64,000 nt of DNA, taken from Leptolyngbya sp. FACHB-261. GTDB lineage: Bacteria > Cyanobacteriota > Cyanobacteriia > FACHB-261. The notes beneath the pieces were generated by a model that was not told the DNA's origin, made no database searches, and saw only the letters and a program-made list of their open reading frames with translations. Within the stretch, counting starts at the first letter, position 1, and every line of letters starts with the position of its first letter. The stretch spans positions 186,001 through 250,000 of the forward strand of contig NZ_JACJPL010000018.1 of the NCBI RefSeq assembly GCF_014696065.1, read 5' to 3'. Shown here piece by piece: positions 27,076 through 33,210 of the stretch. The translations under genes were made by a program, and so were the position numbers.

Positions 27076-27825
27076 TTAGCTAGATGGGCTTCTAGTTGGA
27101 GATGGGCTTCTGCTAGGAGATGGGATTTCAAGTGGAGACGGGCTTCTGCTAGGAGATGGACTTCTCGTGGGAGGCAGGAGCCTAGATGGAGATGGGCTTC
27201 TGCTAGGAGATGGGGTCTCAAGCGGAGATGGGCTTCTGGTGGGAGATGGACTTCTCGTGGAGGATGGGAGCCTAGCCGGAGATGGGCTTCTGGTGGGAGA
27301 TGGACTTCTCGTGGGAGGCAGGACTCTAGCCGGAAATGGGCTTCTGCTGGGAGGCAGGACCCTAGCCGGAGACGGGCTGCGACCCGGAACAATCAATTCC
27401 TCTTCTAAATCTGCAAGGCGCTGTTGATTCAAGCGCACCAGACAACCTGTGCGTCTGGCTGAGGCCATGGCCCGTTCAGAGAATCTGGTGCTGCTGAAGT
27501 CGCAGGCGACATTGCGAAAGCGTAACCAAGCCTGATGGGAGTTGACTAGTTTTTGACGGCGAGCGGCGGGCAGGGTTCGTTGCAACTCTCGGTAAAGCTG
27601 GTCCAGCCTGCGATTGCTTGCTTCGTAGTCCCGTACTGCGCAGCGGCGCACATCTGCAATCGTTTGCGGGCTAGCACAGCCCACGGATAATCTGGGCACA
27701 GCTGGAGTAGCTGGTGGGATAGCTGGTGGTGTAGCTCTCTGTCCCAACGCATTTGGCATCAACAGGGCGAGTGAGCCGACGCTCAGTAATGTCAAAACCC
27801 CCGCTTTTCCCCAGTTCCAGCGCAT
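27076..27825 (-). CDS. LprI-like (DUF1311) secreted protein with long Ser-Pro-Arg-rich tail
   Basis: 249 residues from ATG 27825, which has GAGGTG just upstream. A signal peptide (GVLTLLSVGSLALLMPNALG) is followed by a DUF1311/LprI-type domain, residues about 50-145, with Cys in VGCASPQ, VRRCAV, VACDFSS and TGCLVR as in lysozyme-inhibitor relatives. The last 100 residues are a low-complexity tail of SPSP, TRSP, SRSP and LPP blocks, encoded by a degenerate DNA repeat (27080-27380). Such a basic, proline-rich tail could bind an anionic cell wall or polysaccharide. The gene at 27943-28356 is a tandem paralogue without the tail. Confidence 0.85.
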   Translation of the reverse strand: MRWNWGKAGVLTLLSVGSLALLMPNALGQRATPPAIPPATPAVPRLSVGCASPQTIADVRRCAVRDYEASNRRLDQLYRELQRTLPAARRQKLVNSHQAWLRFRNVACDFSSTRFSERAMASARRTGCLVRLNQQRLADLEEELIVPGRSPSPARVLPPSRSPFPARVLPPTRSPSPTRSPSPARLPSSTRSPSPTRSPSPLETPSPSRSPSPSRLLPPTRSPSPSRSPSPLEIPSPSRSPSPTRSPSS

Positions 27826-28534: not shown

Positions 28535-31500
28535 TCAATCTTCATCTAAACTGGCGTGCGCTCGACCTAAGGGTAGAACAACTGTGAAACAGGTCTGCCC
28601 CAACGCACTTTCAACCTGAATACAGCCTCCCAAATGGGTCGTTAATTTCTGCACTAATGCTAGACCCAACCCAGTTCCTCCCTGCTGCCATCGGTCATTA
28701 CTGGAAACTCGATAGAACTTTTCAAAAATGTGCGGCAGCTCTGACGCTGGGATCTCTGCTTCATTACAAATCTGGAAAATAGCGGTAGGAATTGGAGCTG
28801 ATGCGACTCGAACGGTGAAGGTTATTTGACCACTCGGGGATGTGTATTTGCAAGCGTTGTTCAAGAGTTCTGTCAAAATACGCTCTAATCCACGCTGGTC
28901 TGTCATTAAAGGTGGCAGGTCAGAAACAAGGTCAAGATGCAGACTTTGTTGACGCTGGTGAATCCGAGACTGGAAGGGCTCTAGGAGGCTAGGCAACCAA
29001 TCGGTTAGGTTTAGAAGAGACCAATCAGGCGAAGCAACGCCAGCTTCTAGGCGCTGCAAATCTAGCAGGTCGTTGATCAGATCAGTTTCCCGAGCACACT
29101 CATTCTTCAGAATTTGCAGATAGCGCTCACGCTTTTCCTCAACTTTGGAGGTTTTCAGCATGTGAATAGCCATCTTCATATTGGATAGAGGAGAACGCAA
29201 TTCGTGAGAAACAGTGCTCAGAAAGTCATCCTTGAGCTGGTGCAATTTTTCAAGTTCTTTGACTTGAGCTTGGGAGGATTGATAAAGATTTGCTTGACGA
29301 AGAGCAATTGCGCACTGATTCGCAACCTGCCGGACCAAGCGCATCTCCAAATCGTTAAAGGTTTCCTCTGACTGCTTATGCAACCACAAGTCACCTAGCA
29401 CGCCCTTGTCATCAACAATTGGACAAGCAAGCAGAGCTTCATGAACTTGATGCAGTTCTGGAATAGACCCACAGAATTGAAAACACTGCCCTTGCAAAAG
29501 CTGATGATAGATCTCAGGAAAGTCCGTCATAGCAATTACCCGCTTTTGACCCTGAGGTAATTGAATTTGCACAGACTCATAGTGGACCGTTGAAGTCCCG
29601 TAATCAGCGCTGTAGAGCGCAGCATCACAGTAGCAAACAGATAGCAAAAGGGCTAATTCCTGCACAACTGTTTGCAAAATTTGGCGCTCATCAAGGCTGT
29701 CTCGCACCTTGTCTGTAATCCGTTTGAGTAGTGCTTCGAAATCGAGGGACTGCTGCAATTGAGCAGTTCGCTCTTGCACCTGGTGTTCAAGTCCTGCATT
29801 GAGTTCTTGCACCTGCCGGTAGAGTTGCTGTAGTTCTGCTTCTGAGTGCTTCTGTTCGGTGATATCGCGCAGAATCACGACATACTCCTGGAAGTCTGAA
29901 TTGAAGCGGTTGGAGACCGCAACTTCGAAGATACGGAGCTGTGAGTCTTGGGTAAGAAACTGTTCACTCCGCCTTGGCCAGTGCTCTGGCCTATCCTGCA
30001 AACTGGTTAGCAGTTCATTCAAACGCTCTCCCAACAGGTGAGCGCGACTCAAGCCGAGTAGAGACTCAGTTGATGGGTTCAGCTGACGAATCACACCATC
30101 ACCGTCCAAGACAAGAATGGCGTCAAGGGCAATCTCAAAGAGGTGCTCAGCCTGTTTGCGTGCGGTAAGCATTGCAAGCACCTGTGGCAAGCTGGTCCAG
30201 CAAGCAATAGCAACCGCTAAAAAGGCTGTGAGCAAAAGCAGCACAATCAGCAGATTTGCAGAAGGTTGAGCAGAGATCGGCACTAACCAGGCTCGCATTA
30301 CCCAGCCCAAAGTAAGAGCGCTGCAAACCAATCCCAGCAAGATGATGATTTGAACGGCAATAGAATCGTTGGCCTTGCCAAATCGCTGCTTCTGATAACG
30401 CTGGACCCACCAGTTAGATTGAAAGGGCGCAAATTTCAGGCGTTGAATAGCCCAATCTATCGCTAAAATCGCCAGGGGCCATAGCAATCCAACCAGCAAG
30501 GTCCAGCGCCAGGTCGCTCCTGCTACCACCAGGACCACAGCCTCTAACAGGAGACACCCCAAAGACCAATGGGGCCAGCGTACTTCTGGCTGCTGGCGCG
30601 AGAGCCATAGGGCCAACTGGACGATCATGATTGTCACAAAGTAGCTGGTGCCAGTTGCCACCAACAAGCTAGGTACGTCTCCCCAAGCCAGACACAGGAA
30701 ACTGATCAAAAAGGTAAAAGCCAGGGCAGGTTCTAGAACCCCCGTCCGTGAGACGACTGCGAAGACGGGCGCAAGCTCACCATCCAGAGCAAACTGGTAC
30801 AAAAAGCGAGGGCAGACTGCAACTGCAGTGGCACAGGCTAGCAGGAGACCAGCAGTCACTAAGAGCGTCACGAAGGCTGAGGCAGATTGACCCCAGAATG
30901 GCTGGGCTACTGCAACCAAGATCAAGAATGGATTGTTGCCTAGTTCTGGCCTTGTTGCTAATTGCATCAACACCCAAGAGCCTCCCAGAAAAACAACTGG
31001 GATTAGGCAGGCAGTGAGCAAGAGAAACCTTAAGGCGGCAGTGGGCTTCCGGCTTTCTCCAACAAAGACAGCAGAGGTGTCGCTGCAATAGTAGGTGGGG
31101 AGCGCCAGGAAAACCCAGTTAGCCCAGGAGTTGAAGCTGAAGCTAGGCCAATGGCTTGGCAGCAAACCCGGACTATCAGGTGAGAGCGCTAACCAGCCAA
31201 CCCCTTGAACACAGAAGAGCAGCAGCGAGGCAATCGCCGGGAGCACCAAACATAAATGCAAGACCGACAGAGCTTTGGTGCCACTTAGAGCCACTACAAA
31301 GGCAATGGCTGTGAAGCCAATTTTCAAGGGCAACTCGGGACAGGGGAGCCCTAGCGGCTCAAGGTTCTCCTTGAGAAGGGCCGCAAAGACGATGGCACTC
31401 ACTGCTGGCGTTGCGGCCCAGGTTAAGAAGTAGCCAATCGCAACGTAGCGTCTTAGCCACGGGTAGGGTTTCAGCAGACGGGCTACATAAGCAGGATTAC

Positions 31501-31726
31501 CTCCGACTAGCTCCGGCCACTGCGAACCCAGGTGTTGCACCTGCAAGTTGTAGAGGACGCCTGAGATGGCTCCGAACAGCCAAACCCAAAGTGCTTGAGA
31601 TCCCAGCGCAGCCTGCATGATGGGCGCAAGGGCAATCCAAGCAACCAGATTGGTCAGACTAAAACCCCAGGTTTCAAGAGCAGTGAGGCTACGGGGGAGG
31701 CGCGTTGCGGAGTCCTGATTGAGCAT
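28535..31726 (-). CDS. APC-type permease fused to PAS-GAF histidine kinase
   Basis: 1063 residues in one frame, starting at ATG 31726 behind GAGG. Residues 1 to about 515 are an APC-superfamily (amino-acid permease) domain of about 12 helices. The TM6-like segment ends in FVGESRKPTAALR, as in transporters, but TM1 (NLVAWIALAPIMQAALG) lacks the usual glycine-rich unwound motif. Then come a PAS domain (about 530-640, DAILVLDGDGVIRQLNPS), a coiled coil, a GAF domain (about 680-810), HisKA with H841 in VSHELRSP, and HATPase (ELLNNACKYTSP, GGTGLGLALVQKL). The permease probably acts as the sensor. No regulator is adjacent. The kinase half resembles the partial gene at the left edge. Confidence 0.93.
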   Translation of the reverse strand: MLNQDSATRLPRSLTALETWGFSLTNLVAWIALAPIMQAALGSQALWVWLFGAISGVLYNLQVQHLGSQWPELVGGNPAYVARLLKPYPWLRRYVAIGYFLTWAATPAVSAIVFAALLKENLEPLGLPCPELPLKIGFTAIAFVVALSGTKALSVLHLCLVLPAIASLLLFCVQGVGWLALSPDSPGLLPSHWPSFSFNSWANWVFLALPTYYCSDTSAVFVGESRKPTAALRFLLLTACLIPVVFLGGSWVLMQLATRPELGNNPFLILVAVAQPFWGQSASAFVTLLVTAGLLLACATAVAVCPRFLYQFALDGELAPVFAVVSRTGVLEPALAFTFLISFLCLAWGDVPSLLVATGTSYFVTIMIVQLALWLSRQQPEVRWPHWSLGCLLLEAVVLVVAGATWRWTLLVGLLWPLAILAIDWAIQRLKFAPFQSNWWVQRYQKQRFGKANDSIAVQIIILLGLVCSALTLGWVMRAWLVPISAQPSANLLIVLLLLTAFLAVAIACWTSLPQVLAMLTARKQAEHLFEIALDAILVLDGDGVIRQLNPSTESLLGLSRAHLLGERLNELLTSLQDRPEHWPRRSEQFLTQDSQLRIFEVAVSNRFNSDFQEYVVILRDITEQKHSEAELQQLYRQVQELNAGLEHQVQERTAQLQQSLDFEALLKRITDKVRDSLDERQILQTVVQELALLLSVCYCDAALYSADYGTSTVHYESVQIQLPQGQKRVIAMTDFPEIYHQLLQGQCFQFCGSIPELHQVHEALLACPIVDDKGVLGDLWLHKQSEETFNDLEMRLVRQVANQCAIALRQANLYQSSQAQVKELEKLHQLKDDFLSTVSHELRSPLSNMKMAIHMLKTSKVEEKRERYLQILKNECARETDLINDLLDLQRLEAGVASPDWSLLNLTDWLPSLLEPFQSRIHQRQQSLHLDLVSDLPPLMTDQRGLERILTELLNNACKYTSPSGQITFTVRVASAPIPTAIFQICNEAEIPASELPHIFEKFYRVSSNDRWQQGGTGLGLALVQKLTTHLGGCIQVESALGQTCFTVVLPLGRAHASLDED

Positions 31727-32220
31727 TGCCTCGTTTGCCCTGCTTTACATTTAGGTCTATTCAGATCTTTTACCTGATGGTTCTGGAGGCAGAGCCGCAT
31801 ATGCTGGCTCTCCTCTTGAGACCCATAGAGAGAGACCAACAGAGAAAGCCCACAGAGCATCCGGCCTGTGCGGCTCGCCATGATTCTAGCCCTGGCATTT
31901 TCTCGTCTTCTTTAGCTCAGCAGTCAGCACAATAGGCTGTACTGACAACTTCCTCCGCCTCAGTTGCCGAAGATAATGGCTTAGGTTTGCCTTAGTCTCC
32001 CAGGTCAAGCCCTGGGAGCGAACGCCCTAGTTTCCCCTGAAATTTGCTAGGAGCCCTTATTGCTACTTCCTGACTCTTGCCTGAAATGAAGTCAGAGCTA
32101 AGCAAGTAGGAACCAGCAAGCCCACCTCCTTCCAAAATTGATCCCCTTCTTTCAGGGGTAGGAGAAGGGGCCGGGGGATGAGGGCCTCTAGCCTTCCACA
32201 CTGCATTAGCATTTCAGGCC
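31727..32220. other. Intergenic gap with noncoding G/C-rich element
   Basis: It holds the upstream region of the permease-kinase gene. At about 32142-32185 a hairpin CCCCTTCT...AGAAGGGG is followed by CCGGGGGATGAGGG. This C/G-rich noncoding motif resembles short repeats common between bacterial genes. No coding region is seen. Confidence 0.45.
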
Positions 32221-32399
32221 GTAACAGTCACCGTATAGCCTGCATAAGATGTTGCTTATGCGACATCTGTCACCACTTAAACAGAACTTATGGATCCGAG
32301 TTCTGTGACAGTCACCCTAAATCGTGCATCAAATGATCTAAATCGCGTGACAGTCACAGCATAAGTGGAGCTTATAACTTCGAGTTGTGTGACGGTTAC
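32221..32399. repeat. Array of five 11-bp palindromic motifs spaced exactly 42 bp
   Basis: The motif GTGACAGTCAC occurs at 32305-32315 and 32347-32357. Related copies are GTAACAGTCAC (32221), ACATCTGTCAC (32263, half-conserved) and GTGACGGTTAC (32389). All five starts are 42 bp apart. The intervening 31 bp differ, but units 1 and 2 each carry a 7-bp inverted repeat (GCATAAG/CTTATGC and CAGAACT/AGTTCTG) whose centres are also 42 bp apart. 42 bp is four helical turns, so a protein bound to all sites would sit on one DNA face. It lies 80 bp after the Uma2 stop and about 500 bp upstream of the permease-kinase gene. Confidence 0.85.
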
Positions 32400-32478
32400 C
32401 GCTTGTTAAGCCAGAGTCTTCGCAGGCGTAGAAGTTATGTCTGTAAATCTGTTTCGGAGATCCCAGTTTCAGGAATTG

Positions 32479-33210
32479 CTACAACTCTTCGGGATTCAAG
32501 CCAAGCTCTCTGAGCTTGGCTGCCATACGATCCTGGCGTTGCCGCTCTTGCTCTCGCAGTTGCCGCTCTTGCTCCACCAGCTCTGTTCCCCACAGGAGCA
32601 GCTCACCTGGCGCATTCCACCAGCGCAACCAATAGCCAGTTCGCTCGGCCTTAGTGCCCTCCCGAAGTCCTAAGAACAGGTCAATCCCTTCTAGCCAATA
32701 GCGGCCCTGGGTATCCGGTATTTGCAGTTGATACCGGCCTAACCCAAGCTGATAGACCTCTAACTGCCCGGTTCTCGGCTCGAAGATCACGTAGTTGGGC
32801 ACCTGCAAAATCTGCTCGTAGAAGAACCACTTGCCAGGTGGGTAGGTGGGCTTGCTGGAATATTCGCCGCCCTCAGTTTCTGACAGAAACTCCATCACAA
32901 CGGCAGGCTTATCCCCTTCTAGATTGGGCGTGTAGCTACGACGGGGAGAGGATGAACTTGTGAGCAGTACCGAAGGCACGTAAACCCAATCTGGCGCTTT
33001 GATAATCAACTTGCCGTCTACTGTGGCGCATAAGCCAAAGTTGGTAGCAACTAGCGTCGTCTCGCGCAGCAAACCAGCCAGTTCTAAACTTTCAGTCAAA
33101 GCTGAGGCTAGAACGGGTTGATCGAGATTGTCCACGGGCTCGTCATCTAAACGAAAATCATCCGGCAGTTTTTCCCAGGCAATCGTATGACCGCTCAGAG
33201 TGATGGACAT
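32479..33210 (-). CDS. Uma2 family protein with coiled-coil tail
   Basis: 243 residues. The Uma2 core is present but divergent: APDWVYVPSVLLTSSSSPRRSYTPNLEGDKPAVVMEFLSETEGGEYSSKPTYPPGKWFFYEQILQVPNYVIFEPRTGQLEVYQL, with the acidic VVMEFLSE and a Lys in PGKWFFYEQI as candidate catalytic residues. A charged helical tail (EQERQLREQERQRQDRM) ends in LRELGLNPEEL, a common C-terminus in cyanobacterial Uma2 proteins. Function unproven. Divergent from ureC, with 146 bp between starts. Confidence 0.88.
   Translation of the reverse strand: MSITLSGHTIAWEKLPDDFRLDDEPVDNLDQPVLASALTESLELAGLLRETTLVATNFGLCATVDGKLIIKAPDWVYVPSVLLTSSSSPRRSYTPNLEGDKPAVVMEFLSETEGGEYSSKPTYPPGKWFFYEQILQVPNYVIFEPRTGQLEVYQLGLGRYQLQIPDTQGRYWLEGIDLFLGLREGTKAERTGYWLRWWNAPGELLLWGTELVEQERQLREQERQRQDRMAAKLRELGLNPEEL

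Follow-up and report, generated by a model that had tools for sequence, protein, structure and literature searches.

Why should a short palindrome recur five times, in strict register, in an intergenic region of Leptolyngbya sp. FACHB-261? The sites lie within a stretch of 64,000 bp that was analysed as a whole (the window), and a preliminary description of its sequence had presented them as an element of its own kind. The reading that we favour, at a probability of roughly 45%, is that this array is an orphan member of a class-wide family of arrays with a period of 21 bp, and that it would serve as a multi-site platform for a protein of a small family, here called A1, acting from a remote locus. 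The features concerned are the following (positions in the window; those without a sign have no strand).

32204..32414: whole degenerate array, about nine 21-bp units with a dominant repeat of 42 bp (autocorrelation at lags 21/42/84 only)
32221..32231: site 1, GTAACAGTCAC, palindrome with one mismatch (read from the sequence)
32263..32273: site 2, ACATCTGTCAC, right half-site only (read from the sequence)
32305..32315: site 3, GTGACAGTCAC, perfect palindrome (read from the sequence)
32347..32357: site 4, GTGACAGTCAC, perfect palindrome (read from the sequence)
32389..32399: site 5, GTGACGGTTAC (read from the sequence)
32242..32261: spacer dyad GCATAAG-N6-CTTATGC, centre 32251.5 (read from the sequence)
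32281..32306: spacer dyad ACAGAACT-N10-AGTTCTGT, centre 32293.5, 42 bp after that of the first dyad (inverted-repeat listing)
32317..32324, + strand: octamer CTAAATCG, copy 1 (direct-repeat listing)
32338..32345, + strand: octamer CTAAATCG, copy 2, 21 bp after copy 1 (direct-repeat listing)
32479..33210, - strand: Uma2-family gene (PF05685), flanking neighbour, 3' end 64 bp from the array
28535..31726, - strand: permease-kinase gene, flanking neighbour, start 477 bp past the other end of the array

Internal structure of the window array

Direct reading confirmed that the five GTGACNGTCAC-like sites (32221-32399) follow one another in exact 42-bp steps. The finer details that had been reported also hold: one copy is a right half alone (32263), two copies are identical (32305 and 32347), the inverted repeats of the spacers are centred 42 bp apart (32251.5 and 32293.5), and the octamer returns after 21 bp (32317 and 32338). 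No ORF of at least 60 aa crosses the array, which is thus noncoding. Its self-match amounts to 0.36 at lag 21, 0.43 at lag 42 and 0.54 at lag 84, with neighbouring lags at 0.20-0.25. Since matches recur at these lags and not at their neighbours, 21 bp is the underlying period, and the 42-bp step of the sites is twice that. The array is too degenerate for Tandem Repeats Finder (TRF) to report; elsewhere in the window TRF lists a tandem repeat with an 18/90-bp period (27082-27378, score up to 317).

It had been considered that the motif might simply occur at chance frequency. As to numbers in the window this is so, with 22 matches at up to two mismatches against 21.6 expected; the phasing, however, departs from chance. 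Over 450 kb of the contig, which contain 160 sites of this kind, 42-bp-spaced pairs are confined to the window array, and a 42-bp register set from any start outside it meets one site at most. The autocorrelation of the array is not exceptional in rank, as a value at least as high is found in 20 of 1249 1-kb bins, including bins with true arrays and with coding repeats.

A family of arrays with a period of 21 bp

Searching the same genome for GTYAC phased at 21 bp returned some nine more arrays whose units differ, four of them upstream of A1 genes and three near genes of a second small family, A2. In a scan of 1.25 Mb of the genome, tandem self-match has its maxima at 21, 42 and 63 bp, is near zero at 20, 22, 41, 43, 62 and 64 bp, and has no counterpart in shuffles; stretches without long ORFs contribute 14, 15 and 11 segments at the three periods, respectively. 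Averaged over 55 arrays, the match is 0.64 at lag 21, 0.64 at lag 42 and 0.58 at lag 63, compared with 0.21-0.30 at other lags, 7 and 14 included. In some arrays the best periods are 41, 62, 83 or 85 bp, that is, slips of one base from multiples of 21. Slips of this size can be reconciled with a helical constraint (near 10.5 bp per turn) but not with one set by codons. On these grounds, and with no ORF of at least 60 aa across the window array, we rejected a coding heptapeptide repeat (21 bp being seven codons).

From locus to locus the unit sequence differs and the period stays 21 bp. This bears in two ways on the expectation that motif and spacing would be kept in relatives. The GTGACNGTCAC motif itself is not conserved: its 42-bp pair was found in 0 of 290 other genomes tested. 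The phased architecture does persist, class-wide, while units diverge. Nor does the idea of a one-off element find support, since this genome and other cyanobacteria have many 21-bp arrays, of which the window array is one. Of 54 unit profiles, 14 are dyad-symmetric with p<=0.013, against an expectation of fewer than one. Arrays throughout the class also have a weak unit motif in common (score 176 against a null of 107+-2), oriented mostly on the strand of the A1 gene. By contrast with a promoter or terminator bias, intergenic placement is indifferent (6 divergent, 15 tandem and 6 convergent regions).

It is established that the helically phased array of the window is real and is part of a broad family of arrays linked with A1. 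The family is apparently undescribed; we found no earlier description of 21-bp arrays in the open-licence full-text literature, which is an incomplete body.

Association of the arrays with A1 genes

A1 proteins, of about 130 aa, occur in 62 of 291 genomes of the cyanobacterial class, with 12 copies in the genome studied here. To score upstream regions, self-match at multiples of 21 bp was compared with control periods. By this measure 36 of 41 A1 genes from this genome and its relatives are preceded by an array, with scores of at least 19, and these arrays end 114-297 bp from the start codon, while control periods score at most 12 and no downstream region of the 41 loci exceeds 13. Four of these genes had been found via their arrays; among the 37 detected by protein search alone, 32 are array-positive. 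In the relative G190 every full-length A1 locus (12/12) has an array. The autonomous form thus defined comprises about 7-12 units, 100-300 bp upstream of an A1 gene. A1-bearing G190 contains 12-13 non-heptamer 21-bp arrays per 580 kb, whereas A1-lacking G018 has two 42-bp noncoding arrays and none at 21 or 63 bp per 600 kb, a comparison of one A1-positive with one A1-negative genome. The same 580 kb of G190 (C1:1-580000; L274-L293, L324-L332) also hold very many heptamer tandem repeats of the GTTAGGA and CTAACTC types, which are plainly distinct from the 21-bp arrays.

In many relatives the interval between array and A1 gene (L186-L209) contains the conserved box TTTGCTGAACC and after it AAGCCA-GCTGG, some 50 bp ahead of the A1 start; in several A1 loci of the genome studied here, AAATCTACTGA follows the array. 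These are possible promoter elements.

Array types and the assignment of the window array

Pairwise comparison of units in this genome gave 13 multi-member array types. Eight of them consist of exactly one A1 locus together with A2-linked or orphan arrays, and none includes two A1 loci. All ten A1 arrays of this genome fall into different types, and eight share their type with non-A1 arrays. Such a "one A1 per array type" pattern has a P of about 0.11 in this genome, which is suggestive and not significant alone. In G190, five orphan arrays each resemble chiefly a single A1 type, though the L349 and L355 types are to some degree similar to each other, and three further orphans form a type without an A1 in the sample. 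Across 46 loci, array similarity rises with A1 identity (Mantel p 0.002): the fraction of alike arrays is 1-2% below 55% protein identity, 55% at 65-75% and 82% at 75-85%. Co-variation of this kind would fit recognition of the array by A1 or plain co-inheritance.

As for the window array, its unit scores 0.56 against the array of an A1 locus on contig C1 and 0.60 against an orphan array on contig C26 (99.9% null 0.53). Among the 46 A1 arrays of the class, the C1 locus is the best match for both the window array (0.56) and the C26 array (0.80). Window positions 32247-32295 (49 bp, covering the first spacer dyad) match the C26 orphan at 80%, the array of the C1 locus has a GTGACAGTCACC unit at 42/21 bp as in the window, and the genome search located a second 42-bp pair of GTGACAGTCAC within a 21-bp array at C1:32840/32882. 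Judged by unit similarity, the window array is a member of the C1 A1-locus type, with the C26 orphan, although its match of 0.56 to the A1 type is modest. Neither A1 nor A2 genes were matched in the 64-kb window, and BLAST of the array against 39 relatives, all of the same class, gave no match. Because the GTGACNGTCAC pair is absent from the other 290 genomes searched and the window lacks A1 and A2, we regard the array as an orphan whose type has so far been seen only in this genome.

A2 and other neighbours

A2 proteins, of about 108 aa, number about 45 in this genome, many with a 21-bp array nearby (e.g. C22:247391, C28:97347 and C31:208354; L155-L184). They are predicted to be winged-helix proteins resembling MarR-like and archaeal regulators. 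Pfam and PHROGs gave no match, and for the members sampled NCBIfam and PADLOC gave weak sub-threshold ones only, from a single member. Since no A2 was found in 193 other genomes of the class (194 tested with this one), the family is a lineage-specific addition. With this distribution, and no A2 near the window array, A2 was rejected as its binder. In two loci a second small gene (MHLTQVLQPQLCIPLSQVARFLGIPESLICR...) without a Pfam match lies across the array from A2 (flanks of C31:208054 and C31:786841; L140:3102-3497). A further small-protein family (..GDKSRIFIQQAMEV.. / ..GDKTRAFVHKAVEL..), likewise without a Pfam match, apparently sits beside two long arrays (C31:425831-426281 and C18:360184-360453). 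Other arrays adjoin TIR, EAD9-like and STAND/AAA_35-like genes of predicted conflict systems (C31:389986, 409310, 631081, 647250 and 691373).

Of 17 arrays on contigs C18 and C31, 5 have a Uma2 gene no more than 2 kb away, compared with 0.70 expected. As the genome holds 53 Uma2 copies and the enrichment exists at the 2-kb scale only, it points to a shared neighbourhood, not to partnership, and Uma2 was rejected as a partner. Nothing ties the window array specifically to its Uma2 or permease-kinase neighbour.

Proposed mechanism

On the position and co-variation of the arrays, A1 probably binds those that lie upstream of its genes. A dimer or oligomer of the A1 type would bind the repeated, often dyad-symmetric sites, whose spacing of two turns would place them all on one side of the helix. 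The resulting cooperative nucleoprotein patch might control A1's own gene, and orphan arrays sharing the unit of an A1 could let it act at remote loci. The candidate binder of the window array is the A1 paralog at C1:32168-32548. The preliminary description had envisaged a dimer on one face of the DNA; the 21-bp phasing, the one-base slips and the frequent dyad units all fit this geometry, whereas the protein itself is a matter of deduction. We infer its identity with A1, its oligomerisation or cooperativity, and any regulatory effect of the orphan array on neighbouring genes.

Several observations count against A1 as the binder. Its model, which has a 54-residue helix and basic ends (pTM 0.52), suggests a long coiled coil in which no DNA-binding fold is recognised. 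Foldseek found no structural neighbour in the PDB (best E 5), Pfam and PHROG libraries gave no match, and neither did NCBIfam or PADLOC for the members sampled. That the long helix would span about two DNA turns is a numerical coincidence, no more. Convergent regions are as frequent as divergent ones, which is odd for operators, and the window array has no A1 gene in its vicinity.

It is tempting to speculate further that expanded A1 families form a cyanobacteria-wide DNA-addressing system, in which each paralog has its own fast-evolving array type and targets both itself and same-type orphans across the chromosome; we put this forward tentatively, as possible and no better than that. If the pairing of A1 and array is a binding code, many cyanobacteria would have several orthogonal DNA-address systems running in parallel, which could be read from sequence and put directly to the test in binding assays. 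A1, a small family without a domain assignment in the libraries searched, would gain a function, and a class of period-21 repeats distinct from the known heptamer repeats would be explained.

Alternative explanations

The foremost alternative, unlikely in our view but deserving serious weight, is that another protein, a nucleoid-associated or regulatory factor, binds the arrays, with A1, A2 and conflict-system genes merely its favoured targets. It would account for arrays beside A2, TIR, EAD9 and STAND-like genes and for the occurrence of a single array type next to both A1 and A2 genes, and A2 is a predicted winged-helix protein. Nonetheless, the association with A1 is the tightest and is class-wide, A2 cannot explain arrays elsewhere because only this genome of 194 has it, and the many unit types per genome would demand many factors.

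Rather improbable is a dispersed selfish or miniature element, copied by A1 or a linked activity, with orphans as non-autonomous copies in the manner of REP/RAYT. The absence from A1 of a recognisable nuclease or HUH domain speaks against it, as does the absence of A1 from IMG/VR and phage records. No conserved ends and no target duplications were seen, and arrays of one type resemble each other only in their units. What it does capture is that one genome can hold a type both in autonomous form, with gene and array, and as orphan copies, that placement is independent of gene orientation, and that Uma2 is in excess near arrays.

A neutral slippage minisatellite, in which 21 bp would be a mere trace of the duplication mechanism, seems to us quite improbable. 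The fast drift of array sequence and the tandem copies speak for it, and heptamer repeats, presumably products of slippage, are abundant in a related genome. However, the position upstream of A1 is conserved over many genera, period 21 dominates all others, and neither the excess of dyads nor the shared weak motif, mostly on the A1 gene strand, would be expected. That the functional form is a structured RNA or an extruded cruciform can hardly be credited: the window array folds better than its shuffles (z -3.75), but 16 of 68 arrays fold worse than theirs and the rest vary widely, so that folding is no common trait of the arrays, and with no Rfam match above chance an RNA gene was rejected.

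Comparison with known systems

Iteron arrays and partition sites of the ParR/parC type consist of tandem repeats in helical phase, close to the gene for their binder, which autoregulates that gene. The 21-bp arrays resemble them in being tandem, phased and near the gene of the presumed binder, A1. They differ in their many copies and unit types per chromosome and in their orphans, and A1 differs in having no recognised domain; no replication initiator, rep, par or ParM/ParR genes were seen beside the arrays inspected.

REP elements with RAYT transposases are dispersed intergenic repeats that exist in gene-linked and gene-less copies (PMC3733652, PMC3116915), and the 21-bp arrays share these traits. 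Unlike REP elements, they are tandem and not single hairpins, and have no GTAG/CGTC tag; nor is an HUH tyrosine transposase recognised in A1, which matches no family, or in the neighbours of the window array, which are Uma2 and permease-kinase genes. STRR heptamers and TAACTGA-type repeats are intergenic tandem repeats of filamentous cyanobacteria (PMC4679880). Here the likeness is that 21-bp arrays are intergenic tandem repeats of cyanobacteria too, and that 21 is a multiple of 7. Yet the 21-bp arrays show no excess at lags 7, 14, 28 and 35 (0.22-0.24 against 0.64 at lag 21), and their sequence varies by locus at a constant period; with matches of 0.26 at lag 7 and 0.29 at lag 14, the window array was rejected as an STRR array.

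With its regular spacing and unrelated-looking spacers, the window array recalls a CRISPR. Its core, however, is only 11 bp, in place of near-identical repeats of roughly 23-50 bp with unique spacers, its "spacers" are themselves 21-bp-phased repeats, and neither Rfam nor TRF recognises it. The NTP-dependent conflict systems of multicellular bacteria (PMC7159879) come to mind through the TIR, EAD9 and STAND-like genes that adjoin some arrays, but the text of that study makes no mention of tandem repeats, 21 bp, intergenic, palindromes or iterons. The window array fits the A1-associated array, as defined here, in two respects: it is noncoding with a 21-bp period, and it shares its unit with an A1-linked array. 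No A1 gene adjoins it, and in this it is an orphan like many others of the family.
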